A DNA stretch of 64,000 bases. Source: a virus. The stretch spans positions 62,001-126,000 of IMG/VR virus record IMGVR_UViG_3300031758_000004; one strand, given 5' to 3'. Below the pieces are notes generated by a model, which was not told where the DNA came from, ran no database searches, and saw only the letters and a list, made by a program, of their open reading frames with translations. The translations under genes and the position numbers were made by a program. Below are positions 1,974 to 64,000 of this stretch, one piece after another; position 1 is the stretch's first letter, and the number at the start of each line of letters is the position of its first letter.

Positions 1974-2043
1974 ATAAGTAGGTTTGTTTTAAAAAAGGAT
2001 AATTTAAAAATAATATATATAGTAAATAAAATAAATTGTCTAA

Positions 2044-4430: not shown

Positions 4431-7400
4431 ATGCAAGAATCAAGATACGGAAGAACAAATATAACAGATGAATATTTAAGGTATCCATTTAATGGACCAT
4501 TAAACTACAACTATAATTATAGTGGGACTTTTTCTAAATATTCAATAATTGATAAATATTATGTAGATTCACTAGTTAAAAATACTAAAAGATTGATAAG
4601 TGGTGGGGCTGAGTGGTCATCTGGTATGACTTTTAGTTTAACTGATATATGGTATTCTTTTTCTGGTGAAATACTATCATACTCTGCTAGTTATCCCGGA
4701 TTAACAATTAGTAATGGTGATTCATCATATCCTAGAATTGACTCAATAGTAATTACAGAGGATAGAACAATTAGAGTTAAAAGAGGTGTTCCCTCAGCAA
4801 CTCCAGTTAAAACCCCTCTAAATGAAGATGAGATTTTAATACAATACGCTTATATACCAGCATCTGCTACAACTATTGGAAGTAAAGTTCCTGTTTATTT
4901 AACAGATGCTCAATGGCAATCAAGCTCTTATTTAGTTTCTGGTACTTATTCTGGTACAGTAAGTTTTACGAGTACTGATAATCCTTTCGATGGTGGTGGT
5001 GACTTTTGTGTCGATGTTACATCTGATTATAGAACAGGTGTTAGGTTTACAAAAGCAATTGGAACTATACCACTTTCAACATACGGTTCTTTGAGTTTAA
5101 GAGTTAGATTTTCTGAAAGAGTACCTGGTAATAGATCATTAGTTGCTCAAATACAAGGTACATCTTCTCAATTTACTGGAACTGCATCTAGTAGTGTTAT
5201 TAACTTAATGTCATACGGTGTTGATAGAGATGTTATTAATCAATGGCAACATATTGTTGTTCCTATGTCTAAGTTTGGTTCGGTAATTACCAATGCTAAA
5301 AATATATCATTTAGATTAATTGGTGGTTCACCAAATTCAAATCATAATTGGAAATTAGACAATATTTACTTTCAAAGTGGAGCGCCTTATGATGAATATA
5401 TGGGAGAACCTGATCCTTCTTCAACTGGTGGTTCATTTTCTTATATAGTTCAACAAAGTAATGAATGGTTAAAATCTGTTTTTGGTAGAACAAATAGTGT
5501 GCCGAGTGGTCCAACTGCTGGTGATAGATATTTAATTATACCAACTGCTAATGATATATTTACCGGAATGGAAGATCAAATTGCCGAATTTGATGGATTA
5601 GCAGCAACTTGGTCTTTTACTATACCAACTAATGGAACATCAATAAGAGTTGATAATGAAGACAACTCTATTTATAGATATGAAGGTGATTATAATACTG
5701 GTTCTTGGATTAAAGAATTATTAGCTCAAATAAGATATTTAGATGCTACTACATCAAATGCTGGTTTAAGCTATTCAGCAACATCTACACCTTTATTTGA
5801 CGCATATAACAAAGAAATGATTTATCTTATTTCTTTTGGTGCAACTAATTCAATTGGAACGGCTTCTTTATCAGTTAACAATTTAGAACACGTTACACTT
5901 AAAAAAATTGCTGCTACTTCTGGTGTTGTAAATCTTGAGCCTAACGATTTAAAAGTTGGTGGTGTTTATAGTGTTAGTTATGATGGTACTTATTTCCAAG
6001 TTAATTTAGGTGGTGGTGGTGTAGGTAGTTTTATCGAAAATCCAGGTGATTATAGAATTTTAACAGCTACTGGTACATCTAATAATCAAGCAATAGCAAA
6101 CTCAAACTTAACTTTTGATGGTACTACATTGGGTATAACTGGGTCTAATATATCTGGTAATTTAATATATGCTTCAGCATCATCAACTGACACACTAATT
6201 AATATAACTCAAAATGGATCAGGTGATTCATTAATAGTTAATTCAAATAACTCAACATTTGTAATTGATTCAAATGGAAATGTTGGTGTTGGTACTCAAT
6301 CAACAAATAACAAATTAGAAATATTTGGAACCGTTTCGACTTTTGGATTTCAATTAAAAAACGGTGGTACTGAAGGATACTTCTTAGTATCAGATTCTAA
6401 TGGAATTGGTACATGGACGGCATCTTTCCCAGGAGCTACGGGAGCTACCGGGTCATCCGGAACATCTGGAACATCAGGTACAAGTGGTGAACAAGGTACA
6501 TCAGGTACAAGTGGTGGTGGATCTGCTGGTACATCAGGTACTTCAGCCTTAGGATCATCTGGAACATCAGGTACAACTGGTGCTCCCGGAGAGACTTTAA
6601 GTCCTCAAGGTGTCGAGGCTTCATATTCGTCATTAACTCAAAGTGTTGGTACTGTAAATACAATACCAACACCTGGATTTCTAGATACTTACATTGTACA
6701 AGATACTGCTAGTTTATGGATTTATGATCCAACTTCAACAGCGGCTAACTCAGAAGGTTGGGTTGATATGGGTTCAATTCAAGGTCCAGCTGGTTTAGAT
6801 GGATCTGCTGGAACTTCAGGTACAAGTGGTAGTCAGGGTACATCTGGAACATCAGGTTCTAATGGAACATCTGGAACATCCGGAACTCAAGGTACATCCG
6901 GTACAAGTGGTGAGAATGGAACAAGTGGAACTTCTGGTTTACATGGATCTACTGGTACATCTGGAACTCAAGGAACATCTGGAACTCAAGGAACATCTGG
7001 AACTCAAGGAACAAGTGGGACTCAAGGAACATCCGGAACATCTGGTTTAAACGGATCTGCTGGAACACAAGGAACATCTGGAACAAAAGGAACAAGTGGA
7101 ACAAGAGGTTCATCAGGAACAAGTGGATCATCTGGGTCACAAGGTAATTCAGCTGGTATTCAATATAACTATGCTACTAGCACCACAAACTCAAATCCAG
7201 GCGTAACCAATTTGAGACTTTTGAGTAACTCACTACCAACAGTTGGAACTATATTAATAAGTATTATTGATTTAAATTCAATAGATGAGTCTGCTTGGTT
7301 ATCTTCTATGACAACTGGTTATTTAACTATTAGAGGTAACTCAAATGATTCTACAAATTCAGCGGTTTTTTATATATCAAATGTTTCTTTACAGACTAGT

Positions 7401-8342: not shown

Positions 8343-11300
8343 ATGGGTAATGAATTCTTTGCTAGAAAAGGTCTAGCGCTTGGTACAGCTTCCGAAACAG
8401 CAACAGATAACCGAATATTAATATATGGTGCTGATGGTGTTCTAAAATATAGAACTGATATATCAGGTACGGGTACATCCGGTACATCCGGTACTCGTGG
8501 TACATCCGGTACATCCGGTATTCAAGGTACATCCGGTACTCGTGGTACATCCGGTACATCCGGTATTCAAGGTACATCCGGTACTCGTGGTACATCCGGT
8601 ACATCCGGATCACAAGGGCCTTCTTCCGGTCTTCTTTATAACTTTATTTCATCTGGTACAATGGCTGATCCAGGTGTTAGTAATTTTAAACTAATAAGAA
8701 CATCATCATTCTCAAATGTTACTAATATTTATATAAATGAGATTGATAATTTATCTGTTATACAAACATCTTATTTATTTGGTATAGGTGTAGGCGATTA
8801 TATAATTATAAGAGGTAATGATAACTCAACAACAAACTTTGGGATATTATATGTAACATCAAAAACTGATGTTGGATCTTATTGGGATTTTGGTGTTAGT
8901 GTTATATCCGGTAATTGGAATTTAAACTCATCATACTTATGTTCTATATCTATACAATTTTCCGGTACATCTGGTAGCCAAGGAACATCCGGAACATCTG
9001 GAGTTAAAGGTACTTCTGGTACTTCAGGAACCTCCTTATTAGTAGCCGGTGTTCAAAATCAAATACAGATTAATAATGGTTTAGGTGGATTGGGTCAATT
9101 TGGATTGATGGATTCGACTAGGGGTTCAATTCTTATAAACAATAGTAGTCCAATAAACACAACCGGATTGGATAATACATTTATAGGACATCAATCTGGT
9201 TGTGGTAACACAACCGGATTTAGTAATATATTCATCGGATCTCTATCTGGTTCTAATAATATAACCGGTTTTGAAAATATATTTATTGGTACTAAGTCAG
9301 GTTGTAGTAATACCTTTGGTGATAATAACTTATTCATTGGTAGTAATTCTGGTTGTAGTAACACAACTGGTAGTTATAACACATTTATAGGTAATTACTC
9401 AGCTAATTGCAACACAGTACAAATAGCTAACACTTATATTGGTGCTTTTACTGGTGCTGAATTACAAGGTCAATTCAATACTTTAGTTGGATATATTTCT
9501 GGTGGAGGTGGGGGGTTAATAAACGCCACTAGTTCTTACAACACATCACTAGGTGCAGCGTCTGGTGGATCTATATCATATGGTATTGGTCAAAATACAT
9601 ATATTGGATCTTTTGCTGGATACTCAGATTCATATGGATTTTCAAGTGTCATGATTGGATTTTGTTCAGGTGCTTGTACTGGTGTATCATCAACAAATTT
9701 ATTTATAGGTGCTTATAGTGGGGGTGGTAATAAGTATTCATGTCTAAATACATTTGTAGGATATCAAACCGGTGGATCTTTTAACCCAAATCCTAATTCA
9801 CAGAATGCAACAAATTCACAAAAATGCAACGTGATATTTGGTCATCAATCTGGTTTTTTAAGTTTTTATTCCTGTGATAATACATATTTGGGATTTAGAT
9901 CTGGTTATTCGGGAACACAATCATCATTTAATACATTTATAGGTTTTTGTTCAGGATATTCCAATATTATAAACAGTAATACATTTATTGGATATCTATC
10001 GGGTAATAAAAATACAATTGGATCTTCTAATTCATTTATCGGTTATAAATCTGGGAGTGAAAACACAACAGGATCTTTCAACACTTTCATTGGATATCAA
10101 TCAGGTATGTGTAATTTAACCGGGATTGCTAATGTATTTATAGGACACTGTACTGGTGGTAGTAACACAGCAGGTGAAAGAAATACATTTATTGGCGTTA
10201 ACGCTGGAGTTTCTAATACGGTCGGAATTTGTAATACTTATATTGGTCAAGGTGCTGGTTATAGTAATACAACAACTAGCGAAAATATCTATATTGGTAC
10301 ATTATCCGGTTTTTCTAGTAATGGTGCGTCAAATACGATATCAATGGGTGTTAGAGCTGGGTATTTTACATCTGGTTCTGATAATATATTTATAGGTAAT
10401 TGCTCTGGTTATGATAATAATATTGGTTTTAGTAATGTATATATTGGAAAATTATCCGGTTTCAGTGGAACCCAATCGTCTCAAAATACATTTATTGGTG
10501 TTTGCTCTGGTTATAATAACAAAACTAGTACCAATACATTCGTTGGATTTTGCTCCGGATCTTCCAACACATCAGGTTCAAATAATACATTCATTGGTAA
10601 TCTTAGTGGTTCTACTAACGTAACTGGTTCAAATAATACATTTGTTGGTAATCAAGCGGGTTTCAGTAATACAACTGGACATGAAAATACATTTGTTGGT
10701 AAATCGAGTGGTTACTATAATGTTTCTGGTGAATGTAATACTTTTATTGGAGCAGATGCTGGTTATTGTAATACTACTGGTCGAAGAAATACATTTATAG
10801 GTACTTGTGCAGGATGTTGTGCTAATGGACTTGATAATACGTTTATTGGATATCATTCTGGTAAGTCAGCGATAAATAATGGTGGTTGTGGTACTGATAA
10901 CACATTTGTAGGATCTTGTACAGGTCCAGTTAATACAACTGGTGAATTAAATACATTCATTGGTTCTGGTACTGGTTATTCAAATACATCAGGTAGATTA
11001 AATACATTCTTAGGTACTAATGCTGGTTTTGAAAATACCACTGGTTTTGAAAATACTATTGTTGGTGTACAAGCAGGACAGTATAACACAATTGGAAATT
11101 ATAACTCATTCTTTGGTGTTTATGCTGGATGGCAAAATACAACTGGTATATCAAACACATATATAGGTTGGGCATCGGGTGCATCAAATGTTTCGGGTCA
11201 AGGTAATACATTTATTGGTGAATCATCTGGTTATGGTAATACAAGTGGTATTTATAATACATTTATCGGATATTGCTCTGGTTTTGTTAGTGAAACTGGT

Positions 11301-18170: not shown

Positions 18171-18513
18171 ATTTAATATCTTCTATTTTATAATCTAATT
18201 CAATTAAAAGTAACTGACATTCAACTTTTAATTGAATTAGTTTATCTACATCAACCTCTTCTAATATAGACCTACTTATTGATTCCATTTCATCTAAAAT
18301 AGTTTGTCTAATCTTATAAAGATCTTCTAATACATCTTCCTTTATCTCTAATAAGATAGATTTATAAAAAGGATTTTTTGTTAAATCTTCTCTGTAAAAA
18401 TCAACACTAAATCCTTTAACTATCTTTTCAATATTTGAAATGATATCTTCCTCAGTATTAGACTGATTTAATTCTTTAAGTATTTTTTGATATTCATCAA
18501 AGTTTTTACCCAT
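18163..18513 (-). CDS. Hypothetical helical acidic protein, 116 aa
   Basis: The protein is almost entirely charged and helical (NQSNTEEDIISNIEKIV, DEMESISRSILEEVDVDKL), with no Cys and no membrane segment; a coiled coil is likely over residues 55-110. Its start overlaps the SmpB stop by one base, so it is co-expressed with SmpB. No family was recognised. A partner or regulator of SmpB is conceivable from the coupling, but there is no direct evidence. Confidence 0.65.
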   Translation of the reverse strand: MGKNFDEYQKILKELNQSNTEEDIISNIEKIVKGFSVDFYREDLTKNPFYKSILLEIKEDVLEDLYKIRQTILDEMESISRSILEEVDVDKLIQLKVECQLLLIELDYKIEDIKSI

Positions 18514-18968
18514 TATCTAAAATTCATTTCTCTTTTAGCATCTCTATCAATATCCCTTTGTTTGATATCTTGCTTTTTATTCCAAAGTTTCTTACCTTTA
18601 CAAACACCAATTTTCAATTTCAATCTGTTATTTTGAATGAAAATACCTAATGGTATAATAGTAGTTCCTTTATCTTGTATAAGTCTATCTATTTTAGCGA
18701 TCTCTTTCTTATGTAATAATAATTTCTTTTCACGATTTTCATCATGAACTTCAATTTTATGAGACCATTTGTAACGAGAAACTTTTAAGTTTTTAATCCA
18801 TAACTCACCAGACTTAAAGTAAGCATACGAATCAACTAAGGTAACATCACCTCTTCTGATAGATTTAACTTCACTACCTGTTAAAATAATACCGCAATCA
18901 AATTCTTCAATTACATCAAACGAATATCGAGCCTTTCTATTACTTACTATCATATATTTTTTATACAA
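18513..18968 (-). CDS. smpB: SsrA-binding protein SmpB
   Basis: A full-length 151-residue SmpB. Diagnostic stretches are VSNRKARYSFDVIEEF, GIILTGSEVKSIRRGDVTLVDSYA, KKLLLHKKEIAKID and the C-terminal KGKKLWNKKQDIKQRDIDRD, the last being the tail that enters the empty mRNA channel of a stalled ribosome. SmpB binds tmRNA and is required for trans-translation, which frees ribosomes stuck on broken messages. I found no tmRNA-like sequence next to it, so it would have to work with the host tmRNA or one encoded elsewhere. A phage copy could help rescue ribosomes when host mRNA is degraded during infection. Confidence 0.95.
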   Translation of the reverse strand: MYKKYMIVSNRKARYSFDVIEEFDCGIILTGSEVKSIRRGDVTLVDSYAYFKSGELWIKNLKVSRYKWSHKIEVHDENREKKLLLHKKEIAKIDRLIQDKGTTIIPLGIFIQNNRLKLKIGVCKGKKLWNKKQDIKQRDIDRDAKREMNFR

Positions 18969-46556: not shown

Positions 46557-47357
46557 TTAAGAATTTATTATTTTTTCAAAATCAGTATAGTCCTTATCTA
46601 TAATGAAAATAAAGTTATAACCATTCTCTATTGTGTATTTCATTTTTGCTATATTTTCATCATAATCACAATAAGTATAAGTTGACTTTACTTCAACAAT
46701 TAGATTAATATCTCTTATTAAGAAATCCGAATAATAAACTCTTTCTTTTTCACACAATTTATATTTTATAGTTGGACCATTTTCTATATTAATTTCATTT
46801 TTTATACAATATTCTATAAAATCTAATTCATACGTTCCTTTATAATATAATTCAGTTTCTTTATATTTTATAGTTCTATATGAGTTTTTCTGAGCTTTAT
46901 TAAAAATTTTTTCATTTTTCATAGGGTGATCTACACCATACTTCTCTATAAAAATATTTTTAATTTTATCTTTTATCTTTTTTGATTTTAAAACACAATC
47001 AACACCATATTTTTCCATACAAGTTTTTTTAATTTTATTTTTAACTTGATCTAAAATTTGAATATTATCTACCCCATAATTTTTCATAAAGATGATTTTT
47101 GTCTTATTAAAATGACATTTATGACATGAATATATTTTCTCTTCCGCTTTATTCATTTGTAATATATAATTTGACCAAGTTACATCATTTATTACTCCAC
47201 AATATTCACATTCACATTTTACTTTTGTTCTATTAGAATCATTCATATCCTCTGGTAAAACCATAAAATAACCATTATCTTCAATATATCCCTTTTCAAG
47301 GAAATATTTTTTAGTTCTATTGGAAACTTTAACTTTTATAAATTTATTTAATAACAT
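46557..47357 (-). CDS. Putative PD-(D/E)XK homing endonuclease
   Basis: A 266-residue protein. It has an N-terminal zinc module (KCECEYCG, YSCHKCHF), then three copies of a roughly 30-residue unit containing EKYGVD or NYGVD with KIKxx-type helices (about 95-160), known from phage homing enzymes as DNA-binding repeats. The C-terminal part has YYSDFLIRDINLIVEVKST, a D...ExK nuclease core. It is antisense to its neighbours, between primase and the RHH/M16 operon. The start codon lies in the loop of an 8-bp AT-only inverted repeat (47337-47344 and 47358-47365), with TTTTTATATATAAA upstream (47373-47360). Confidence 0.75.
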   Translation of the reverse strand: MLLNKFIKVKVSNRTKKYFLEKGYIEDNGYFMVLPEDMNDSNRTKVKCECEYCGVINDVTWSNYILQMNKAEEKIYSCHKCHFNKTKIIFMKNYGVDNIQILDQVKNKIKKTCMEKYGVDCVLKSKKIKDKIKNIFIEKYGVDHPMKNEKIFNKAQKNSYRTIKYKETELYYKGTYELDFIEYCIKNEINIENGPTIKYKLCEKERVYYSDFLIRDINLIVEVKSTYTYCDYDENIAKMKYTIENGYNFIFIIDKDYTDFEKIINS

Positions 47358-47432
47358 AATTTATATATAAAAACTTACCACTTTCCTACATACTTTTTAT
47401 AAACTTTTTTAAAATTTTTTTTATAAGTAATT

Positions 47433-47597
47433 ATGAATAATAAAATACCCGATGATGAAAAAAGGATTAAAATTTCAATAAGTATTGATCCTAAACTAAA
47501 TCAAAAAATAGATGAACTACTAAAATCTAAGTTTTATAAAAAATCTAGATTTGTAGAGTATTTAATAAAAAAATATTTAGAAGAAAATGATAATTAA
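47433..47597 (+). CDS. Small ribbon-helix-helix protein, 54 aa
   Basis: MNNKIPDDEKRIKISISIDPKL... gives a beta strand (RIKISISI) then DPKLNQKIDELLK and a second helix SRFVEYLIKKYLEE; this is the strand-helix-helix plan of the MetJ/Arc/CopG family. Its stop overlaps the M16 peptidase start by 11 bases, so the two are one transcript. It is a likely DNA-binding regulator of the operon. Confidence 0.75.
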   Translation: MNNKIPDDEKRIKISISIDPKLNQKIDELLKSKFYKKSRFVEYLIKKYLEENDN

Positions 47598-48696
47598 TTT
47601 AAAGAGTGAAAATGATCTAAGTTCATTTTACATACTATGGGAAGGCTCAACTAACCTTGAAAAGAAAGGAAATTTCGGGATATCTCATTTGGTAGAACAT
47701 TTGCAAACAAAAATGATTGATCACTTACAAGAAGATTTTGACCGAGACGGTGTCGAATGGAATTTATGGACAAGTTCTAATGATATATGTATGTATATCC
47801 AAGGGCTTGATGAAAAAGTAAATAAATGGAAACATATTATAGTAGATTTAATTTTCGATTTTAAAATAACAAAAGAAGATTTTGAGAATGAGAGAAAGAT
47901 TGTAATGGAAGAATATATGGATAGCTTCACAGATTTAAGTGAATCTCATATGTTAAATCTTTCTAGAAAATTATTTAATGACTATGGCCCTATCGGTTTA
48001 AAAGAAGATTTAGAAAGTTTAAAATTTTTAGACATAATAAACTTTTGGGAACTACAATATGCTAAACCAACTAAAGTAATTAATGTTTCTAAAAACAATC
48101 CTTATAAGAACAAGACTTTAGATTTTGCTGAAAGAGAAATCATTAAAAATGTTGAGTATGGTGACTACAAAGTACCATTTGAGTTAAATAATGATTTTAA
48201 AGATAAATCATCTTTAATTATGTTATCACCTATTATCAATGAAGACTTTGCTTATGTTCATTATATCAACGCAATGTTATCATTAGGATTAAAATCTCCA
48301 CTTTATCAAGAAATTAGAGAAAAAAGAGGTTTAGTTTATTATGTACACTGCTATCAATCAAGAATGAATCAACAAGGAATCAATGCTATCGCAACTCAAA
48401 CATCTAATAAAAACTTTAATGCTGTTGTAGATGCTACTAAATTGGTTTTAGACAATCCTAAAAAGTATTTAACAAAAGACAGATTTGACTTAGTTAAAGA
48501 TTTCTACTCAGTTAGACAAAAGAAAGATGAAATTTTAAGATATAAAAACGTAAATCAATTCATAAATCCAGAAGGTTGGAGTGTTTATGACATCTTAGAT
48601 GAAGTTAACTTTATGAAGGTTAAAGAAGTTTATGATAAGTACTATCAATTTGATAATTTTTATGTATCAAATGACAAAAATGAATTTAAGAAATAA
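47587..48696 (+). CDS. M16-family metallopeptidase
   Basis: A 369-residue protein with the inverted zinc site HLVEH at residues 34-38 (HxxEH) in GISHLVEHLQTKM, and ENERKIVMEEYMD about 70 residues later, giving the third Glu ligand. The second half has the LYQEIREKRGLVYYVHCYQS segment, which matches the R/Y-containing partner motif of M16 enzymes. Single-domain M16 proteins usually pair with a partner; here the short form may act as a homodimer. No signal peptide, so it is probably cytoplasmic. Its target is unknown. It is coupled to an RHH gene and a secreted protein. Confidence 0.85.
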   Translation: MIINLKSENDLSSFYILWEGSTNLEKKGNFGISHLVEHLQTKMIDHLQEDFDRDGVEWNLWTSSNDICMYIQGLDEKVNKWKHIIVDLIFDFKITKEDFENERKIVMEEYMDSFTDLSESHMLNLSRKLFNDYGPIGLKEDLESLKFLDIINFWELQYAKPTKVINVSKNNPYKNKTLDFAEREIIKNVEYGDYKVPFELNNDFKDKSSLIMLSPIINEDFAYVHYINAMLSLGLKSPLYQEIREKRGLVYYVHCYQSRMNQQGINAIATQTSNKNFNAVVDATKLVLDNPKKYLTKDRFDLVKDFYSVRQKKDEILRYKNVNQFINPEGWSVYDILDEVNFMKVKEVYDKYYQFDNFYVSNDKNEFKK

Positions 48697-48698
48697 TT

Positions 48699-49058
48699 AT
48701 GAGAAAATTTTTACTAACATTATTAATAACATTAACAACTTTATTTTCTTTTTCACAATCAGGTTGGCAATCTGGTAATTATTACCAATATCAAGGTCAA
48801 AGAGTTAAAGAATATGACTATTATTATCAATATAATTTTCAAGGTGGTTATCAAAAAAGATACAGAATTTTACAATGGGAACAACAGCAGTATTCTGGAT
48901 ATATTTATGTTTGGACTGTAAATGGTTGGTTAGCACAATATTGGAATTCTTATGCTTGGTATTGTTATTGGTCTAATTGGTATTATGAAAATTACTATTA
49001 CCCAAGACAAAACTATAATTATAACTACAATTATCAATACTATTATTGGAATAGATGA
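48699..49058 (+). CDS. Secreted Tyr/Trp/Gln-rich protein, 119 aa
   Basis: The first 20 residues (MRKFLLTLLITLTTLFSFSQ) form a clear signal peptide; the FSFSQ end is typical of Bacteroidota secreted proteins, with cleavage likely near Ser-Gln. The mature part of about 100 residues is extremely rich in Tyr, Trp, Gln and Asn, with many YYQY, YNYN and WxxxYW patterns, one Cys and no known domain. It overlaps the cytochrome gene by four bases. It may attach to the envelope or to sugars; the function is unknown. Confidence 0.82.
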   Translation: MRKFLLTLLITLTTLFSFSQSGWQSGNYYQYQGQRVKEYDYYYQYNFQGGYQKRYRILQWEQQQYSGYIYVWTVNGWLAQYWNSYAWYCYWSNWYYENYYYPRQNYNYNYNYQYYYWNR

Positions 49059-49525
49059 AAAAACTAATAATATATGAGTTTTTGGTTATATTTGGTATTT
49101 GGTTTTTAATACACACATTTTGTAGAACTTATCTTGAGCCAAAAATTAATAGTTATAATAAACCAACAACTGGAAATATTTCTGATTATAGAGATAAAGA
49201 TGATACTTTATCTGAGATAAATATTTTACCAGAATATATTGATTCTGGTAAAGTTTTATTCTCTAGATACTGTGCTAGTTGTCACTCTTTTGATAAAGAT
49301 TTTGCTGGTCCAAAATTAAATGATAGTATTTCTTTTAAATACTTTAATGAAAGTGTTAAAGATATAAGTGATTTATCAAAAAAATATAAACATACTGAAG
49401 TATTATTTAATAAATGGATGCCAAAATCAATGATTATGCCAAAGTTTAATGAAGTATTGAACGATAGTCAAATTGAATATATAAAGTCATATACAATATA
49501 TAGTATAAAATATAGAACTGATTAA
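49055..49525 (+). CDS. Membrane-anchored c-type cytochrome
   Basis: A 156-residue protein with an N-terminal hydrophobic anchor (residues about 4-22), then a monohaem cytochrome c domain: GKVLFSRYCASCHSFD with CxxCH at 73-77, DFAGPKLND after it, and the axial Met in SMIMPKFNEVLND (Met128), followed by the QIEYIKSY helix. All expected class-I elements are present, so it should bind haem covalently, facing the periplasm, using host cytochrome c maturation. It overlaps both neighbours (4 bases and 1 base). An electron-transfer gene in a phage is rare. It may act on host respiration or serve a redox role with the coexpressed envelope proteins. Confidence 0.88.
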   Translation: MKKLIIYEFLVIFGIWFLIHTFCRTYLEPKINSYNKPTTGNISDYRDKDDTLSEINILPEYIDSGKVLFSRYCASCHSFDKDFAGPKLNDSISFKYFNESVKDISDLSKKYKHTEVLFNKWMPKSMIMPKFNEVLNDSQIEYIKSYTIYSIKYRTD

Positions 49526-50247
49526 TGTTAATACCGTATTTAGGTGAAAAAAGTAGGTTATCAAATTTTATAACACCAAATATACCAACCGATATAAAAA
49601 CATATATTGAGCCTTTTGGTGGGGCAATGGGTGTTTTCTTTTCTTTAAACTTTAGTAAGTTTAAGGGTGTTGATTATATCTATAATGATATTAATTATTT
49701 GAATTATAATTTATTTAATCAACTAAAATTTAACAAAGATTTTATTTCGGAAATAAAAAATATCAAAGTAGATCAAAACTACTATTCTGATGTTTTAAAT
49801 AAACTTAATGATGGTGATGAATTACAAAAGGCAATTCAGTGGTTAATAATTTTAACTTGTTCATCAACAAATAAAATAGGTAAAAATTCTTGGTTAGGTG
49901 ATAGTGAGTTTGAGATATTCAAATTAAAACTTAGGGCTTATAAACCACTTTTAGATAAAATAACTAAAATACATAACTGGGATTATAAAAAGATTTTTAC
50001 CGAATATGATTCAGAATCAACATTTTTTTATATTGATCCACCTTATATGGGTAAAGAGAATTACTACATAAATCATAATTTTAATAAAGAATCTCATAAA
50101 GAGTTATCTGATATATTAAAATCTATTAAAGGTAGATTTGTTTTAAGTTATTGGCAATTTGATGATTTGGAGAATTTATATAATAACTTTAGAATTGAGA
50201 AAAAGATGACAATTATGGGTACTGAATTTATAATAATGAATTATTAA
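49525..50247 (+). CDS. dam: D12-class DNA adenine methyltransferase
   Basis: A 240-residue enzyme with motif order X-I-IV: YLGEKSRL at the N-terminus, YIEPFGGAMG (SAM binding, about 28-37) and FYIDPPYMG (DPPY at 171-174). This is the D12 (Dam-like) family that makes N6-methyladenine. It ends the operon, overlapping the cytochrome gene by one base. It may protect phage DNA from restriction or mark it; the recognition site is unknown. Its stop overlaps the minus-strand fibre gene by four bases. Confidence 0.93.
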   Translation: MLIPYLGEKSRLSNFITPNIPTDIKTYIEPFGGAMGVFFSLNFSKFKGVDYIYNDINYLNYNLFNQLKFNKDFISEIKNIKVDQNYYSDVLNKLNDGDELQKAIQWLIILTCSSTNKIGKNSWLGDSEFEIFKLKLRAYKPLLDKITKIHNWDYKKIFTEYDSESTFFYIDPPYMGKENYYINHNFNKESHKELSDILKSIKGRFVLSYWQFDDLENLYNNFRIEKKMTIMGTEFIIMNY

Positions 50248-55831: not shown

Positions 55832-57334
55832 ATGACACAAACAAAAGTTGGATGGAGGTCAGGTAATTTACAACCAGTATCATACCTTTTAGACACTTAT
55901 AATGGAGCGGCAGCAGCTTACTCATTACGTAAACTAAGAAACGCATACGCTGGTAGTGCAATTCGTGTTAGACGTTCGTCTGACAATACATCCCAAGACA
56001 TCGGATTCGATGCAAATGGTAATTTAGATACAACATCGATGTTGAATTTTGTCGGTGCAAATAACCAAGCATTATATTCTGAGGAATTTGATAATGTTTA
56101 TTGGAGTAAATATATTACAACCATTACCTCAAATCAAACAACGGCACCTGATGGTACAATGACTGCCGATTTATTAGCAGAAAGCACAGCTAATAATTAT
56201 CACACATTATACAACGCTACATCTTTATCGTTTGCTGTTGGAACAAGTTGGAATGTGAGTGTATACGTTAAAAAAGGACCAGGAACATCGGCACCTGATA
56301 CAATTATTCTGGGATTTCCTAGCCCAACGGGGAATGTTTTTTCACTTCCTTGTGTTCTATTTAATATATCATCAGGTACTGTATTAGATAGTTCGAACGC
56401 ATCTAATGATGCTAATTTTGGTTCATCAATTGTTGATGCTGGAAATGGTTGGTGGAGATGTTCAGTGTGGGGTACAGTAACAGTAACTGGAAACCGTTCT
56501 CAAGTAGGTGTAATTAGATTTAATAATAATTTAAATACGCTCAATACTTCACTATACCCTGGTAACGTACAATCAAACATTTACATATGGGGTTATCAAT
56601 TTCAAAAAGCGTTAAACGATACGTCAGTATTAACAACACAACCATATACAAAAACTACAACAACAACTACAGCTGGTAATGGATTCGTATCCATATGGTA
56701 TGACCAATCATCAACATATGACGCTTCCCAACAAGCATCTGCCAGTCAACCTCAAATAGTAAGTAATGGTTCATTAATAACTACAAATGGTAAACCAACA
56801 ATAAAATTTGATGGTTCGAACGACTTTTTAGTTACAAGTAATTATCCATTTACTAGTACTGATAAAGTATATGTAGCACATGTGTCAAGTATTGAAACAA
56901 ATAACATAACATCTCAAGTAATAGGACATTTTAAACAATTCAACATGTCTGTATATTTTTCTGGGTACCGTAGTAATGCAAGGTCAATTATGTCAGTGAG
57001 AGATGTAACAACTAGTAAAACTTATGATTTTGGTGTATATAATATTAACACTCAATATCTTTACGAACAACAAACCGATTTATTAAACGTTACAAGTGCT
57101 TTACGTATAAAGAGTTATAGAAATAACGTACAAGAAACTATGAGTTTTGATGGTACAACTAACACATCACTACCAACATTTACACAACCGTTATCAATAG
57201 GTGCTGATGAAATAGGTACAAACTTTAAATTAAAAGGTAACATACAAGAAATAGTGGCTTATTATAATGTTGACCAATCATCTAACCGAACAGGTATCTC
57301 ATCAAACATAAACTCATACTACTCAATCTACTAA
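55832..57334 (+). CDS. Receptor-binding protein, family A (arabinofuranosidase-B-like/CBM), 500 aa
   Basis: It begins MTQTKVGWR. Residues 25-75 have AAYSLRKLRNAYAGSAIRVRRS then DIGFDANGNLDTTSMLNFVGA, the opening of the GH54-like alpha-L-arabinofuranosidase-B fold used by many fibres. A CBM_4_9-like insert follows (TAPDGTMTADLL, SWNVSVYVKKGPG, NGWWRCSVWG), then GFVSIWYDQSS and a jelly-roll lectin-like C-terminus. Catalytic residues cannot be confirmed, so it may bind rather than cleave. Two close paralogues lie at 57589 and 61576. Confidence 0.83.
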   Translation: MTQTKVGWRSGNLQPVSYLLDTYNGAAAAYSLRKLRNAYAGSAIRVRRSSDNTSQDIGFDANGNLDTTSMLNFVGANNQALYSEEFDNVYWSKYITTITSNQTTAPDGTMTADLLAESTANNYHTLYNATSLSFAVGTSWNVSVYVKKGPGTSAPDTIILGFPSPTGNVFSLPCVLFNISSGTVLDSSNASNDANFGSSIVDAGNGWWRCSVWGTVTVTGNRSQVGVIRFNNNLNTLNTSLYPGNVQSNIYIWGYQFQKALNDTSVLTTQPYTKTTTTTTAGNGFVSIWYDQSSTYDASQQASASQPQIVSNGSLITTNGKPTIKFDGSNDFLVTSNYPFTSTDKVYVAHVSSIETNNITSQVIGHFKQFNMSVYFSGYRSNARSIMSVRDVTTSKTYDFGVYNINTQYLYEQQTDLLNVTSALRIKSYRNNVQETMSFDGTTNTSLPTFTQPLSIGADEIGTNFKLKGNIQEIVAYYNVDQSSNRTGISSNINSYYSIY

Positions 57335-57350
57335 AAAAATAAAATAAATT

Positions 57351-57572
57351 ATGACAGGATATAAATACACAACAGAAGAAGAAGCAATTATGGCAAGAAG
57401 TCAAGCCGCTACTTATATGGGTTTACCAAACCCAACTGGTGATACCTTATATTGGGTAAACTACAACCATTCAGAATTAGATGGGTTCTACTACATTCAA
57501 CATGTAGAAGGTTTAGAACAAGTCTTAGGAGAACCAATTGAATTCGAGGTTACTCAACCGGAGATAAATTAA
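57351..57572 (+). CDS. Small companion protein of receptor-binding gene, 73 aa
   Basis: It follows the family-A gene by 16 bases behind an A-rich leader. Its paralogue is at 60788: both read GYKxxTEEEAI or GYKFMTEAEAI at the start, then ARxQ, a WVxYxxxELDGFxYI core and end in PIEFExTQPE. The regular position suggests a fibre-tip cap or chaperone for assembly, or a second receptor contact. No known domain was recognised. Confidence 0.72.
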   Translation: MTGYKYTTEEEAIMARSQAATYMGLPNPTGDTLYWVNYNHSELDGFYYIQHVEGLEQVLGEPIEFEVTQPEIN

Positions 57573-57588
57573 AAAATAATAAAAAACT

Positions 57589-59088
57589 ATGACACAATCA
57601 AGAGTAGGCTGGAGAAAGTACGTAAGTCCTTACTTATTAGACATCTATAGTGGGGGTTCGGCTGCTGCATACTCACTGAGAAAATTAAATGGATCTTATA
57701 CAGGACCGGCAGTCAGAGTTAGAAGGTCCAGTGATAATCAATCACAAGACATTGGTTTTGATAATGATGGTAATTTGGATACGGTAGCATTAACAACATT
57801 CGTTGGTTCAAATAATAAATTTTATTATTCAGAAGACCTAGATAATGCGTACTGGTCAAAAAACGGAGTTACTATAACACCTAATGCTGGTATAGCACCA
57901 GATGGTACACAAACTGCTGATTTATTTACTGAAACAGCAACAACAACGGACCATTATTTCTATAGGGAAGATGTTCAGAGTGGTCTTCTCGTAGGGGGTA
58001 GTTGGAATATGAGTTTTTATGTTAAGAAATCACCAGATAATACACTTACTGAAAATAAAATAATGCTCCGTCAACAAAGAAGTGGTAATTCAAGTGGTGG
58101 TTCAACTGTAGTTTTTAATTTAGAAACTGGTAATGTTGATTATATTGCTGACCTTAATATTTTTGGAGGTTCATTAGGAGTTTTAGGTGCTTCTATGTCT
58201 GATGAAGGTAATGGTTGGTGGAGATGTTCTATGTGGGGAAAAAGACCACCAAAAACTGGTACTGAAAGTCAATCAACAAAAACACCTATAGCAATAGGTA
58301 GAGTTCCAGCAACTACCAATGGTGGTGTTCCAATTGTAAACGCACCTAGTTATGGACAAACTTGGAATGGTAATGTGAATGGTAAGTATTTATTGTGGGG
58401 GTTACAAATAACTCTTAAAAATGATGATGATAGTTATCAAGAATTAAAACCATATTCTAAAACTACTAATACTCTTCCTGGTTCTGGGTTTGTATCAATA
58501 TGGTATGACCAGTCGGGTAATAATATGAATATATCACAAACAACTTCTGCAAATCAGCCATCAATTATTGAAGATAGCACATTGATAGCTCTAAATGGAA
58601 AACCTACTCTTTCTTTTCTTTTTTCTGGAACTACTAGAAAATGGTTAGGTTTACCATTAAATTCGATAACATTAAATAGACCATTTAGCATATTCATAAA
58701 TATGAAAATATATGGAAGTATCTACGACTTCCCAATACTGTCTGGATTAGAAAACAATAGGAATTACTGGATAAGATATTTTATTGGTTTAGGAAGATAT
58801 GCTTATACTCTATATACAGCTGACAATAATTTAATTAACGGAGAAGATATTGTAGATACAAACCAAACACTACATTTTATGAATATATCTTCAAATAGTG
58901 CTAAAGTTGGTAAGAATGGTTCAACATATAGTAAAAATCTTACAACTACGAATTGGAAAGGTCTACAATTAGGTTTAAGTAATTCCGGTCAATTTTATGC
59001 ATCAGAAATGGTGTTATTTAATGGTGATGTGAGTTCTGATAGAAATATCATTGAATCAAGTATTAATTCATTCTATTCAATATACTAA
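57589..59088 (+). CDS. Receptor-binding protein, family A, 499 aa
   Basis: A full paralogue of the 55832 gene: MTQSRVGWRKYV start, AAYSLRKLNGSYTGPAVRVRRSS, DIGFDNDGNLDTVALTTFVG, the inserted CBM-like part (IAPDGTQTADLFT, SWNMSFYVKKSP, NGWWRCSMWG) and GFVSIWYDQSGN, with a different C-terminal jelly-roll. The conserved N-terminal region probably attaches it to the same fibre and the C-terminal part reads the host surface. It is 16 bases after the companion gene and 16 before the next. Confidence 0.83.
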   Translation: MTQSRVGWRKYVSPYLLDIYSGGSAAAYSLRKLNGSYTGPAVRVRRSSDNQSQDIGFDNDGNLDTVALTTFVGSNNKFYYSEDLDNAYWSKNGVTITPNAGIAPDGTQTADLFTETATTTDHYFYREDVQSGLLVGGSWNMSFYVKKSPDNTLTENKIMLRQQRSGNSSGGSTVVFNLETGNVDYIADLNIFGGSLGVLGASMSDEGNGWWRCSMWGKRPPKTGTESQSTKTPIAIGRVPATTNGGVPIVNAPSYGQTWNGNVNGKYLLWGLQITLKNDDDSYQELKPYSKTTNTLPGSGFVSIWYDQSGNNMNISQTTSANQPSIIEDSTLIALNGKPTLSFLFSGTTRKWLGLPLNSITLNRPFSIFINMKIYGSIYDFPILSGLENNRNYWIRYFIGLGRYAYTLYTADNNLINGEDIVDTNQTLHFMNISSNSAKVGKNGSTYSKNLTTTNWKGLQLGLSNSGQFYASEMVLFNGDVSSDRNIIESSINSFYSIY

Positions 59089-59104
59089 AAAATAATAAAA
59101 AACT

Positions 59105-60736
59105 ATGACACAAATTAAAGTAGGTTGGAGACCTTATGTTGATTTAGGACTAGATACTGACGCTACAGCCTTTTCATTAGCTGCAGGTCTTACTGATACA
59201 ACTCAAAAATCCGCAGTTAACACTTTAGTTAAAGATCTGAAAAGATATGGTCTTTGGACTAAAATAAAGGCTTTCTATCCTTTCGTTGGTGGAAATGCTG
59301 AATCTCATAGATTAAATTTAGTTAACACACAAATATACAGTTTAACATTTAGTGGCGGTTGGATTCATGATTCAAATGGTGTTAAATCAAATGGATCAAA
59401 CACAATTGCTGATACTCAATTAAATTTAAGAAGCGCTTTTGGTGCAAATAGTACCGAACATAATTTTGGTATTTATATAAATGATAATCCGATCCAATCT
59501 TCCAATGTTAGAGGATTTAGATCTGATATTTCAGCGTATGATTCTACAAACGGTTCAATAGATTCTTTTGTTTCGAGTCCAACTTTAATGTTTTTTAGAA
59601 GTATTCCATCACATGATTGGTTTTCATTTTATATTAGTCCAACAACTGTTACTGGTTTAAATGAATTAAAAAGATATAATACTACATATTTTTGTTGGTT
59701 TAAAGATGGTTTAGAGGTTCAAGGTGCTAGACAGACAGTTGCGACAACTAAAATAAATCCGAATTCAACTGTAAAAATTGGATCTTCTTCTTCAACGAAT
59801 AGATATTCAACTGCTTATATAACAAGTGCTTTAAATACGATGGAATCATATTTAATGTATATCGCAGTTCAAAGATTTAATTCATCTCTATCAAGACAAA
59901 TTGGAACTTCTATTGCACCATTAACAATTAATACTAATACATCAACCGATGTATTAGTTACAAATGGTTTAAAAATTAATATTGATGCTCAAAATCAAAC
60001 TCCACCAAATGAAAGATCATTAACATCTGACCTACCAGGATTATATTACTATCAAAATGATGTATTGGTTGATAGTAGTGGTAATAGTAATAATGGTACA
60101 GTAATTAGATTAAATCAATATGATTGGCAAAATCGTTTTATAGAATATAATAAATCTGATTTGGGTATACCTGAACTTAGATTTCGAAATTCTGATAACA
60201 CTGCGGGTGGTACTAAGCTGTATCAATCTGGTACTTCGCCGGATTATTTACAAACACTTTATAAAGGATCTGATACAGGTACATTTACGGTAGGTGGATG
60301 GTTTAAAGTTTCTTCAAGACATAATGGTTTTTATGCTATAACAAGAGGACATGATTCTTATGGTGGTGGATGGAGTTTTATTCTGAGTATGTCTATTGGT
60401 TCTAAATTCGGTATTAACATTGTTCCAACGTCTGGTTCAATTTCAGGAACATTTCAATCAACAACAACTGTACAATCTGATGTTTGGTATAATGTTTATG
60501 TAGTTTGGAAGCCAAATTCGTATGTTAAAATGTATGTAAATGGTGTGTTACAGGCAACAAATACAATGACATGTTCTGGACTTAGAGCATCAAATGCTGG
60601 ATGGGGTGTTAATTCGGCTACATCTACAAGTTCAGGTAGAGGTATTCTTGGAGCAATGCATATATATGACCGAGAACTTTCTGCAGCGGAAGTTTTACAA
60701 AACTTCAATGCTGGAAGAGTTAGATACAACGTATAA
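59105..60736 (+). CDS. Receptor-binding protein, family B (LamG-like end), 543 aa
   Basis: It shares the MTQIKVGWRPYV start but not the family-A body. Residues 18-95 contain AVNTLVKDLKRYGLWTKIKAFYPFVGG and SLTFSGGWIHDSNGVKSNG, a fibre module common in Bacteroidota phages and repeated in the gene at 63114. The C-terminal about 200 residues form a LamG/concanavalin-type lectin fold (TFTVGGWFKVSSRHNGFY, MYVNGVLQATNT, GAMHIYDRELSAAEV). It is a likely sugar-binding adhesin. Confidence 0.83.
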   Translation: MTQIKVGWRPYVDLGLDTDATAFSLAAGLTDTTQKSAVNTLVKDLKRYGLWTKIKAFYPFVGGNAESHRLNLVNTQIYSLTFSGGWIHDSNGVKSNGSNTIADTQLNLRSAFGANSTEHNFGIYINDNPIQSSNVRGFRSDISAYDSTNGSIDSFVSSPTLMFFRSIPSHDWFSFYISPTTVTGLNELKRYNTTYFCWFKDGLEVQGARQTVATTKINPNSTVKIGSSSSTNRYSTAYITSALNTMESYLMYIAVQRFNSSLSRQIGTSIAPLTINTNTSTDVLVTNGLKINIDAQNQTPPNERSLTSDLPGLYYYQNDVLVDSSGNSNNGTVIRLNQYDWQNRFIEYNKSDLGIPELRFRNSDNTAGGTKLYQSGTSPDYLQTLYKGSDTGTFTVGGWFKVSSRHNGFYAITRGHDSYGGGWSFILSMSIGSKFGINIVPTSGSISGTFQSTTTVQSDVWYNVYVVWKPNSYVKMYVNGVLQATNTMTCSGLRASNAGWGVNSATSTSSGRGILGAMHIYDRELSAAEVLQNFNAGRVRYNV

Positions 60737-60787
60737 AATTATCATAATTATAGTTTTATGATAAATAAAATAAAAAAATAAATTAAC

Positions 60788-61009
60788 ATGAAAGGTTACA
60801 AATTTATGACAGAAGCAGAAGCAATTGCTGCTAGAACACAATGCGACACCCATTTCGGATATCCGAAAGAAGGATGTGTTACTCAACACTGGGTAGATTA
60901 TCAAAATGCTGAATTAGATGGATTTTGGTACATCACATTTGACGAATCTATTGAGACAATATTAGGTGCCCCAATTGAATTTGAAATTACTCAACCAGAA
61001 TTAAAATAA
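60788..61009 (+). CDS. Small companion protein of receptor-binding gene, 73 aa
   Basis: Paralogue of the gene at 57351 (GYKFMTEAEAIAAR, WVDYQNAELDGFWYI, PIEFEITQPE). It has three Cys-containing turns instead of none. It follows family B after 51 bases and precedes another small gene by 16. Same inferred role as its paralogue. Confidence 0.7.
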   Translation: MKGYKFMTEAEAIAARTQCDTHFGYPKEGCVTQHWVDYQNAELDGFWYITFDESIETILGAPIEFEITQPELK

Positions 61010-61025
61010 AAAAAAATAAAATATT

Positions 61026-61250
61026 ATGAAAGTCTATAAATTAACTTTAGAACAAAAAGATCAATTAGTTGGTCAAAAATGGGATGGTGAAACTTTCTTC
61101 AACCCAACTTTAGATGCAGACGGTAACTGGTTTATCTCTATCGAAGAAGTTCAAGGATATACAGGAACTGAATTCGCTTGGATTTCTGAGTTGGTTGAGA
61201 TTCCTCACAATCCGATCATTGCTGAACTTCCGGGAGAAGTAACCGAATAA
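61026..61250 (+). CDS. Small companion protein, second family, 74 aa
   Basis: It reads MKVYKLTLEQKDQLVGQKWDG, then FFNPTLDADGNWFIS, and ends in HNPIIAELPGEV. The 61305 gene is a close paralogue with the same layout. Its sequence is unlike the 73-residue family. A terminator follows. The position after the receptor-binding genes suggests an assembly or capping role. Confidence 0.7.
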   Translation: MKVYKLTLEQKDQLVGQKWDGETFFNPTLDADGNWFISIEEVQGYTGTEFAWISELVEIPHNPIIAELPGEVTE

Positions 61251-61252
61251 AT

Positions 61253-61276
61253 AAAAGACCTCTTATGAGGTCTTTT
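61253..61276 (+). terminator. Rho-independent terminator
   Basis: AAAAGACCTC / GAGGTCTTTT, perfect 10-bp stem with TTAT loop, then CT. Confidence 0.9.
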
Positions 61277-61304
61277 CTAAAAAATAAAAAATAAGTAATA
61301 AACG

Positions 61305-61532
61305 ATGAAAGTAAGACTTTTAACACAAGAACAAAAAGACCTATTAGTTGGTCAAACTTATGATGGAATTCAATTCTTCAACCCAACATTAGATGCTGAT
61401 GGAAATTGGTTTATCTCAAATGAGGAAGTTAATCAATGTACACATGGAGGAGTAACTGAATGGGTTCATGATTTACCAGAAATCGATCACAATCCGGTTC
61501 AAGTTGAGCTTCCTGGAGATGTAAATCCATAA
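61305..61532 (+). CDS. Small companion protein, second family, 75 aa
   Basis: Paralogue of the 61026 gene: VRLLTQEQKDLLVGQTYDG, FFNPTLDADGNWFISNEE, HNPVQVELPGDV. The copies differ mainly in the middle third (a Cys-His insert NQCTHGG here). Flanked by terminators on both sides, so it may be a separate unit. Confidence 0.7.
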   Translation: MKVRLLTQEQKDLLVGQTYDGIQFFNPTLDADGNWFISNEEVNQCTHGGVTEWVHDLPEIDHNPVQVELPGDVNP

Positions 61533-61534
61533 AT

Positions 61535-61558
61535 AAAGACCTCTTCGGAGGTCTTTTA
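61535..61558 (+). terminator. Rho-independent terminator with UUCG tetraloop
   Basis: AAAGACCTC / GAGGTCTTT stem closed by TTCG (a C(UUCG)G tetraloop in RNA), then T. Very similar to the terminator at 61253, so the pair may have been duplicated with the genes. Confidence 0.92.
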
Positions 61559-61575
61559 AAAAATAAAAAAAAACT

Positions 61576-63057
61576 ATGACACAAACAAAAGTTGGATGGA
61601 GAACATACGTAGATCAATCTGCTCTTCTACTAGATCTATTTCCAAATTCTTTAGCAGCATACTCCTTTAGAAAATTAAATACTAATTACACTGGTGCATG
61701 CATTAGAGTAAGAAGAAGTGGAGATAATACAGAAATGGATATACCTTTTTTAAATAATGTTCTAGATGAAACTACATTAATGAATTTCGTCGGAGCATAC
61801 AATCAATTATCATATTCACAAGATTTTACTAATGCAGTATATGCTAAGTCTGGTGTTACGATAACTGCAGATCAGGGAACTGCTCCTGACGGAACACAGA
61901 CAGCTGATCTTTATTCAGAGAATAGTGGATCAGGTAACCATTATATGTATAGATATTATCCAAACACTACTTTACCTACTGGATATAACTGGAACGCGAG
62001 TTTCTATATTAAGAAAGCTCCTGGAAATACATCAACTAATAATAAAATTATAGCAAAGGAAGACCTTAATGGTTCTTGGGGATATGTTGAGTTCAATTTA
62101 GATACAGGAACTACTTATATTTTTAATTCTTCTGGTATAAACATAACTGGCGCAGCGATGACTGATGAAGGAAACGGTTGGTGGAGATGTTCTATGAGTG
62201 GAGATGTTCTTGCTGGTAGAACTGCAAATAAATTTCCGATAAACATTTTCAGGAACGGTAGTAATAATGGAAATTTCTCTTTTACCGGTGATACTGGTGC
62301 TAAATATTATATCTGGGGTATGCAAGTCACAGGTACTTTAAATAATGTTTCTGGAAAAACTATACAACCTTATGCTAAAACAACAGTTGGGTCTGCAGGT
62401 AACGGTTTTATAGTAACATGGTATGACCAGAGTGGAAATAGTAGACACGCTTCACAACCTACTGCTGCAAATCAGCCGTATATAGTATGGGAAGGGGCTA
62501 TGCTAAAGAATAATGGTAAAGCAACTTTGAAAAAGTTCACGACTGGTTTAAATTCATACGGAAGTAGCATAGGAGGGGATACATCATATAGAGGTAGAAT
62601 ACTTAGATATCCTTACGGATCGTTTACTATAACAAAACCTGTATCACTTTTTACTGTTACTAGATATAACGATACTGGCAATAGAGTGGCTGTTGGTGGT
62701 GATTTGTATTCAGTATATAGCCCTAATTATTTAGATTCCATTACAAATGGTAAATTTTCAATATATACTAGTGGATATCTTTATTCATTATTAAATGCAA
62801 ATACTAATAACAATATCAAGTTTATGCTTTATGATGGATCGAATTCAAAAATATCTGTTAATAATGGAGGTATTAATTCTACCGCTCTGGGAAATATCGA
62901 ATTAAGAGGTATATCAATAGGTGCTGCATCTGGAACTCCTTATTTTTTGAATGAGTTTGATGGGGATATTCAAGAGGTTATTTTCTGGAATTCAGATAAG
63001 TCAAGTACTAGATTAGATATTCAAGATAACATGAATACTTATTATTCAGTATACTAA
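61576..63057 (+). CDS. Receptor-binding protein, family A, 493 aa
   Basis: Third full family-A member: MTQTKVGWRTYVD start, AAYSFRKLNTNYTGACIRVRRSG, DIPFLNNVLDETTLMNFVGA, the CBM-like insert (TAPDGTQTADLYSE, NWNASFYIKKAPG, NGWWRCSMSG), GFIVTWYDQSGN and a jelly-roll C-terminus. It differs from the other two in the C-terminal half, as expected for proteins that share an attachment domain and vary in the host-binding end. Confidence 0.83.
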   Translation: MTQTKVGWRTYVDQSALLLDLFPNSLAAYSFRKLNTNYTGACIRVRRSGDNTEMDIPFLNNVLDETTLMNFVGAYNQLSYSQDFTNAVYAKSGVTITADQGTAPDGTQTADLYSENSGSGNHYMYRYYPNTTLPTGYNWNASFYIKKAPGNTSTNNKIIAKEDLNGSWGYVEFNLDTGTTYIFNSSGINITGAAMTDEGNGWWRCSMSGDVLAGRTANKFPINIFRNGSNNGNFSFTGDTGAKYYIWGMQVTGTLNNVSGKTIQPYAKTTVGSAGNGFIVTWYDQSGNSRHASQPTAANQPYIVWEGAMLKNNGKATLKKFTTGLNSYGSSIGGDTSYRGRILRYPYGSFTITKPVSLFTVTRYNDTGNRVAVGGDLYSVYSPNYLDSITNGKFSIYTSGYLYSLLNANTNNNIKFMLYDGSNSKISVNNGGINSTALGNIELRGISIGAASGTPYFLNEFDGDIQEVIFWNSDKSSTRLDIQDNMNTYYSVY

Positions 63058-63068
63058 ACTATATAAAT

Positions 63069-63098
63069 AAAGACTCGTCAAAGGGCGAGTCTTTTTTA
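63069..63098 (+). terminator. Rho-independent terminator
   Basis: AAAGACTCG / CGAGTCTTT stem with an 8-base loop and a T run, after the third family-A gene. Confidence 0.9.
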
Positions 63099-63113
63099 AA
63101 AAATAAAAAAAAT

Positions 63114-64000
63114 ATGACACAAATAAGAGTTGGATGGCGAGCTTTTGTTACTTCGGTAGTCAATGCAGTAGATGCAGATGCTCAAGCATTTATATCAGCT
63201 GCAGGAATTACTAACTTAACTCAAGCAGCAGCTATCAATACGTTAGTAAATGATTTAAAGACCTATGGAATATGGTCAAAAATGAAAGCTATTTATCCAT
63301 TTGTTGGTGGATCTGCAACTTCACATAAATTCAACTTAAAAGATCCGAGGGATTTAGATGCTGCATTTAGATTAGTATTTAATGGTGGTTGGACACATAC
63401 AAGTAATGGTATAAAAGGAAATGGTACTACAGGATATGCAGATACTAAATTAATACCATCTTCCAATTATCCAACTGAATATGATATGGCTTTTGGTTTT
63501 TATTCAAGAACTGATATAATGGAAAATTCTAATGATATATCAGCTTACAATAGTGGTACTCAATGTATTGGTATTGATACTAGATGGTCGGATGGAAAAA
63601 TATATGGATATATTTATAGAGATGCAGTACCATATAATATAGTAGTCACTAATTCTAGTTCAGCTGGTCTCATATCTTTATCAAGAACATCAACAACTAT
63701 GATGAAAATATTCCGAAATACTTCTATATTGGGAACCACCACTACTGCAATGTCTGGTTCTGTCCCGAATATATCTATAAGACTTTCAGGTAGTACTGTT
63801 GGTTCATATTCAACTAGGGAAAAATCTTTTACTTATATTGGAAATGGACTATCAGATATTGATATAACAAACCTTTATACGACTATTCAAAAATTTCAAA
63901 CAACATTAGGTCGTCATGTTGGATCTCCGATTGTATCAGATTCAGATGCTCAAGCTTTCTTGAATGCTGCAGGTATTACAGATTTAGGCCAAGCTACTGC
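63114..64000 (+). CDS. Receptor-binding protein, family B, partial (runs off the window)
   Basis: Starts at ATG 63114 (MTQIRVGWRAFV) and stays open to the last base, so the C-terminus is missing. It contains the same module as the 59105 gene (INTLVNDLKTYGIWSKMKAIYPFVGG, then LVFNGGWTHTSNGIKGNG), but here the expected DPRDLDAAFRL segment is intact. Near the end the module opening appears a second time, in frame (DSDAQAFLNAAGITDLGQA from about 63942), matching DADAQAFISAAGITNLTQA at the start, so the protein carries at least two copies. Confidence 0.82.
   Translation, partial: MTQIRVGWRAFVTSVVNAVDADAQAFISAAGITNLTQAAAINTLVNDLKTYGIWSKMKAIYPFVGGSATSHKFNLKDPRDLDAAFRLVFNGGWTHTSNGIKGNGTTGYADTKLIPSSNYPTEYDMAFGFYSRTDIMENSNDISAYNSGTQCIGIDTRWSDGKIYGYIYRDAVPYNIVVTNSSSAGLISLSRTSTTMMKIFRNTSILGTTTTAMSGSVPNISIRLSGSTVGSYSTREKSFTYIGNGLSDIDITNLYTTIQKFQTTLGRHVGSPIVSDSDAQAFLNAAGITDLGQAT

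Follow-up and report, generated by a model that had tools for sequence, protein, structure and literature searches.

Alternative complex III is the quinol:cytochrome c oxidoreductase of the Bacteroidota, and phage auxiliary genes are familiar chiefly from photosynthesis and central metabolism. In Flavobacterium johnsoniae, the N-terminal domain of ActA, which carries the sixth haem, has been proposed to shuttle electrons to cytochrome aa3 (PMC8552683). The Mahaphage clade, described by Al-Shayeb et al. from five genomes of more than 634 kb with predicted hosts in the Bacteroidetes, comes with a main text in which neither a cytochrome nor a peptidase is mentioned (PMC7162821). No cytochromes were observed in the phages of another study (PMC8115048), and in the largely open-access literature searched, we found no phage-encoded c-type cytochrome of the kind described below.

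The window analysed here, a stretch of 64,000 nucleotides, belongs to a 191-kb virus record (G000) whose nearest full relatives are the 634–735-kb “Mahaphages” of Bacteroidota. Copies of its M16 protein with 100% identity occur in three further IMG/VR contigs, and relatives with 70–71% identity in LR745206 and LR756502; further relatives are found in LR756501/3 and LR756504, with lengths of 735 and 636 kb. Judging by these relatives of its proteins and by gene order held in common, the phage would belong to the Mahaphage clade.

Five plus-strand open reading frames of the window overlap or nearly touch, as an earlier sequence-only reading had described. They encode an RHH-like protein of 54 residues (47433–47597), an M16 zinc peptidase (47587–48696), a putatively secreted Tyr/Trp-rich protein (48699–49058), a monohaem class I cytochrome c predicted to be membrane-tethered (49055–49525), and a D12-class N6-adenine DNA methyltransferase (49525–50247). 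The RHH and M16 genes overlap by 11 bp, 2 bp separate M16 from the Tyr-rich gene, and overlaps of 4 bp and 1 bp join the latter to the cytochrome gene and the cytochrome gene to D12. In the same order, the probabilities that the frames are open by chance are 1.4e-3, 6e-17, 1.1e-5, 6.5e-8, and 8e-12. Pfam and PHROGs back the M16, cytochrome c, and D12 identities; the RHH call is weak. A scan for sigma-70 promoters in this AT-rich DNA stayed near background, with 50 found against 41 ± 7 expected.

The cytochrome, 156 residues long, matches Pfam Cytochrom_C (PF00034) with an E value of 1.8e-5 and 26.4 bits, against a cut-off of 21.3. It has a single CxxCH motif (CASCH), an N-terminal hydrophobic anchor, and a distal axial Met, M128 in MIMPKF, that is aligned in all three phage cytochromes found. 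The periplasm-facing cytochrome proposed in the sequence-only reading is upheld, with export as a prediction. The single-sequence AF2 model is poor (mean pLDDT 44); it has a helix over residues 2–34, confident to about residue 30. Inside the gene, at window positions 49223–49254, there is a terminator-like inverted repeat of 13 pairs followed by T's.

The phage cytochrome is homologous to host respiratory cytochromes. When a phage-cytochrome profile was compared with 198 Bacteroidota genomes, the best matches were N-terminal haem domains of ActA (best E value, 4e-12). The majority of the top 30 loci were of this kind as well. A profile of two phage cytochromes, those of the window and LR756502, matches ActA of F. 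johnsoniae (PDB 6btm_A). The phage protein and the N-terminal haem domain of ActA (6BTM) are both monohaem class I cytochromes with CxxCH-...GPxL and a distal Met, and both are membrane-tethered and periplasmic, in the phage case by prediction. Unlike ActA, however, the phage protein is free-standing, with its anchor at the N-terminus and an inverted topology, and it has no pentahaem part; one CxxCH in 156 residues does not make the full ActA architecture of monohaem domain, membrane helix, and pentahaem domain. Soluble Rhodothermus-type cytochromes are about as near to it. When samples of equal size are used, the window protein scores 35–38 bits with ActA and 39 bits with solo cytochromes. 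ActA is one candidate source among several, the ActA, soluble, and GSDH-fused domains all lying within a few bits of one another at equal sample size. The tree leaves the placement of the phage cytochromes among Bacteroidota class I cytochromes open. Since ActA fits no better than the soluble cytochromes, the safe assignment is a Bacteroidota class I cytochrome of the segment between complex III and the oxidase.

How widespread are such genes among these phages? In the first nine records searched, a cytochrome is present in the window's own lineage, LR756502, and LR756501. It had no match in 40 further relatives, mostly fragments, and therefore appears dispensable for the phage group; wider viral scans for cytochromes of the LR756501 and LR756502 types returned nothing more. 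The window and LR756502 cytochromes are 36% identical and form one clade (support 99/98), at unrelated genomic positions: in LR756502 (642 kb), the gene sits 281 kb from the M16 gene, with a small lipoprotein-like gene 1 bp upstream. A few hundred bases upstream of that cytochrome, at positions 6376–7050 of locus L013, lies a gene that by inspection encodes a ClpP-like protease. The cytochrome of LR756501, the 735-kb phage, is of a different type, an ActE-like lipoprotein that matches 6f0k_E (E 3.9e-5) and scores 36 bits against a Hymenobacter ActE; the reference ActE, encoded within an Act operon, has 6btm_E as a match. The LR756501 cytochrome has a further match in the cytochrome c portion of a fused cbb3 oxidase subunit. 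The LR756501 protein is a lipoprotein of the general type of ActE, the monohaem subunit of alternative complex III (6BTM_E, 6F0K_E), whereas the window cytochrome, at 17 bits, is not.

What, then, would the cytochrome do for the phage? Its most likely function would be that of an added, tethered electron shuttle that keeps respiration going or redirects it. The protein would be made with its N-terminal membrane anchor and then exported, its haem would be supplied by the cytochrome c maturation machinery of the host, and as an extra shuttle it would link alternative complex III of the host with the terminal oxidase. Respiration could in this way be sustained or redirected during the long infection by a very large phage. 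The opposite effect is also conceivable: the cytochrome, as an electron sink or inhibitor, might uncouple alternative complex III from the oxidase and so stop respiration or poison superinfecting phages. Such an action would suit a protein that resembles just a docking domain or a soluble donor, with the remainder of the complex missing, and ActA or ActE expressed from strong promoters is apparently lethal in F. johnsoniae (PMC8552683). However, both haem ligands are kept, which suggests redox activity, and a huge phage would presumably need a long, energised infection; we consider the inhibitor unlikely and prefer the electron shuttle.

The M16 peptidase matches Pfam M16_C (6e-11) and M16 (1e-5), and its AF2 model (pLDDT 95) is a two-domain single chain whose nearest solved fold is 3hdi (Foldseek E 1.4e-19). 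Residues H34, E37, H38, and E109, the HxxEH zinc motif with its distal Glu, are invariant in 32 phage sequences, reaching as far as phage G, and so is the C-domain pair R244/Y251. The two-domain fold, HxxEH...E, and the Arg/Tyr pair are shared with the M16B peptidases (3hdi of Bacillus halodurans, TTHA1265, and the mitochondrial processing peptidase beta); the phage enzyme differs in being shorter (369 residues), with 13–20% identity. No signal peptide was seen by inspection. The enzyme is predicted to be cytoplasmic, and its gene is a core gene of the phage group. Its plainest role would be that of a cytosolic enzyme that processes or clears peptides, the activity itself being predicted. It might instead be a virion maturation peptidase, which would make the locus part of morphogenesis: in phage G, M16 (gp2) lies right behind the large terminase gene, and poxvirus G1 proteins are among the distant fold matches. 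But S77-like prohead-protease domains are located elsewhere in four giant relatives (none was found in the 191-kb record, itself a genome fragment), so that a capsid-maturation role is disfavoured, and M16 is surrounded here by CoaE, Toprim, D12, and HD-like genes, with no head genes. We hold it to be improbable that the peptidase matures virions, and retain the cytosolic enzyme as the simpler proposal.

Gene order was compared across 40-odd loci with M16 homologues. In nine relatives (L004, L009, L010, and L037–L042), with M16 proteins 69–73% identical to that of the window, the same D12 gene follows M16, either directly or after an intervening insert. The gap between the two genes is empty in L004, L009, and L042; in L037, L039, L040, and L041, it holds a Lys-rich ORF of 77–113 residues; in L010, a Lys-rich ORF with a second D12 gene; and in L038, an opposite-strand gene that by inspection is IS605 TnpB-like. 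Among the compared loci, the Tyr-rich and cytochrome genes occupy this gap in the window's own near-identical lineage only, and the borders of the insert fall exactly at the M16 stop and the D12 start. On this comparison, the gap between M16 and D12 is an insertion site that has received differing inserts in the relatives. The downstream D12 protein matches Pfam MethyltransfD12 (2.4e-22) and contains FYIDPPY, with its DPPY motif. Under-representation of GATC (0.67) was considered as a sign of the methylase target and rejected because other palindromes are equally low or lower. Two further observations concern this side of the locus. In L002, a near-identical contig, a 60-bp deletion corresponding to window positions 50186–50246 removes the end of the D12 gene. 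In L009 (LR745206), positions 9847–10365, directly downstream of D12, encode a secreted protein with a HExxHxxGxxH metallopeptidase motif; with its export predicted, it may be another exported cargo near the M16–D12 spot.

Upstream of M16, the endonuclease-like gene (46557–47357, minus strand) matches Pfam DUF7487 (4.8e-27) and homing-endonuclease PHROGs, with PHROG 15137, an endonuclease, at 1.3e-11. Matches of the RHH-like protein are weak: RHH_3 at E 0.1, PHROG 38821, a family of unknown function, at E 4e-6, and transcription-regulation PHROGs at E 0.004–0.02. The arrangement of a minus-strand endonuclease gene and a plus-strand RHH gene is also present in L040 and L051, and in L040 the RHH protein is 80% identical and its gene has the same 11-bp overlap onto M16. 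Every RHH gene among the sampled loci has a divergent endonuclease gene upstream, and RHH is absent from relatives that do not have the endonuclease. It is probable that the two genes are a mobile cassette, in which the RHH-like protein is probably a partner or regulator of the endonuclease rather than of the M16 gene. Recurring endonuclease–RHH pairs, usually divergent, are seen at window positions 46557–47597, at 6928–8011 in L040, and at 1796–3145 and 10296–11993 in L051; they look like mobile cassettes carrying their own small DNA-binding protein.

These comparisons bear on the proposal, made in the sequence-only reading, that the genes act as one unit. A co-selected module of M16, Tyr-rich protein, cytochrome, and methylase, acting on the host envelope and on electron flow, would account for genes that overlap or abut on one strand, and the five-gene run is one of only three tight runs of at least five genes in the record. 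Yet by the refuting condition which that reading itself set, the order peptidase, Tyr-rich protein, cytochrome fails: it is confined to copies with 99.7% or more identity to the window and is seen in none of the nine relatives with 69–73% M16 identity, and the five-gene order is kept in no diverged relative; dozens of phages have M16 but not the cytochrome, and the related cytochrome of LR756502 is, as noted, far from its M16 gene. Tight spacing is common throughout the 191-kb record, where 46% of 149 same-strand neighbour pairs are no more than 5 bp apart and eight runs of at least four tightly spaced genes occur. Because the order is broken up in relatives, where just M16–D12 and endonuclease–RHH–M16 recur, and because tight spacing is found genome-wide, a functional unit of five genes is unsupported; gene order in the relatives rules out a conserved five-gene module, and a co-selected one is very doubtful. 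The comparison across relatives thus turns the supposed unit into a mosaic of three histories.

The Tyr-rich protein has a signal peptide, MRKFLLTLLITLTTLFSFSQ, that by inspection is Bacteroidota-style and ends in SFSQ, and of the 99 residues of the mature part, 29 are Tyr and 9 are Trp. It matches no family in Pfam or PHROGs, and homologues were found only in the near-identical contigs and nowhere else searched. Together with the cytochrome gene, which it precedes, the Tyr-rich gene appears from the gene order to form a lineage-specific cargo pair, and the two products may function jointly. That this function is a haem peroxidase-like cross-linking of Tyr at the surface, armouring or sealing the envelope against superinfection, we find the least credible of all the readings, for while the genes overlap, both products look exported, the Tyr content is high, and LR756502 has a different small secreted lipoprotein gene directly upstream of its cytochrome, the distal Met points to an electron carrier of the six-coordinate kind and not to a peroxidase, and the Tyr-rich protein has no homologue in anything searched.

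Other features of these phages were noted in passing. Many of their proteins begin with a leader such as MKYIKLFENF or MIKRYxxFINE|S, which is N-terminal in 6.4% of 424 ORFs, compared with 1.2% for internal controls. Examples are at 6908 and 9909 in L004; 7021 and 10155 in L037; 2427, 6444, and 10132 in L040; 2961 in L042; 132827 and 159976 in G000; and 16398 in the window. We take the leader to resemble the capsid-targeting sequence of T4 with its xxE cleavage site, and its frequency suggests that many proteins may be packaged and ejected. A phage-encoded SmpB (Pfam, 9.4e-51) lies on the minus strand at window positions 18513–18968; ARAGORN found neither tmRNA nor tRNA in the 191-kb record. 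At window positions 55832–64000, five or more paralogues beginning with MTQ-VGWR lie in tandem; they may be genes for tail fibres or adhesins.

In sum, we think it probable, with real room for doubt, that the locus is a composite in which the cytochrome is a respiratory electron shuttle. M16 and D12 would be a core pair inherited within this Mahaphage-like branch, the endonuclease–RHH cassette would have been placed upstream of M16, and the Tyr-rich and cytochrome cargo would have been inserted precisely between the two core genes. Phage auxiliary metabolic genes and morons are likewise host-type metabolic genes inserted among conserved phage genes; the cargo of the window differs from the known ones in being a c-type cytochrome carrier. 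With the pair inserted between two older genes, the surprise is a phage that brings along a respiratory electron carrier: what stands out is the phage-borne respiratory cytochrome, and not the operon as a module of five parts. We propose, tentatively and with more doubt than attaches to the composite itself, that huge phages of Bacteroidota have acquired at least twice, in different forms, free-standing tethered shuttle cytochromes of alternative complex III, by which they would control respiration at the junction of complex III and the oxidase. If the cytochrome is indeed a respiratory cytochrome c of the alternative complex III type, the largest known phages would intervene directly in the respiratory chain of their hosts, and they would offer, for testing, a naturally minimal form of the mobile electron-shuttle domain, about whose role in Flavobacterium there is still debate.
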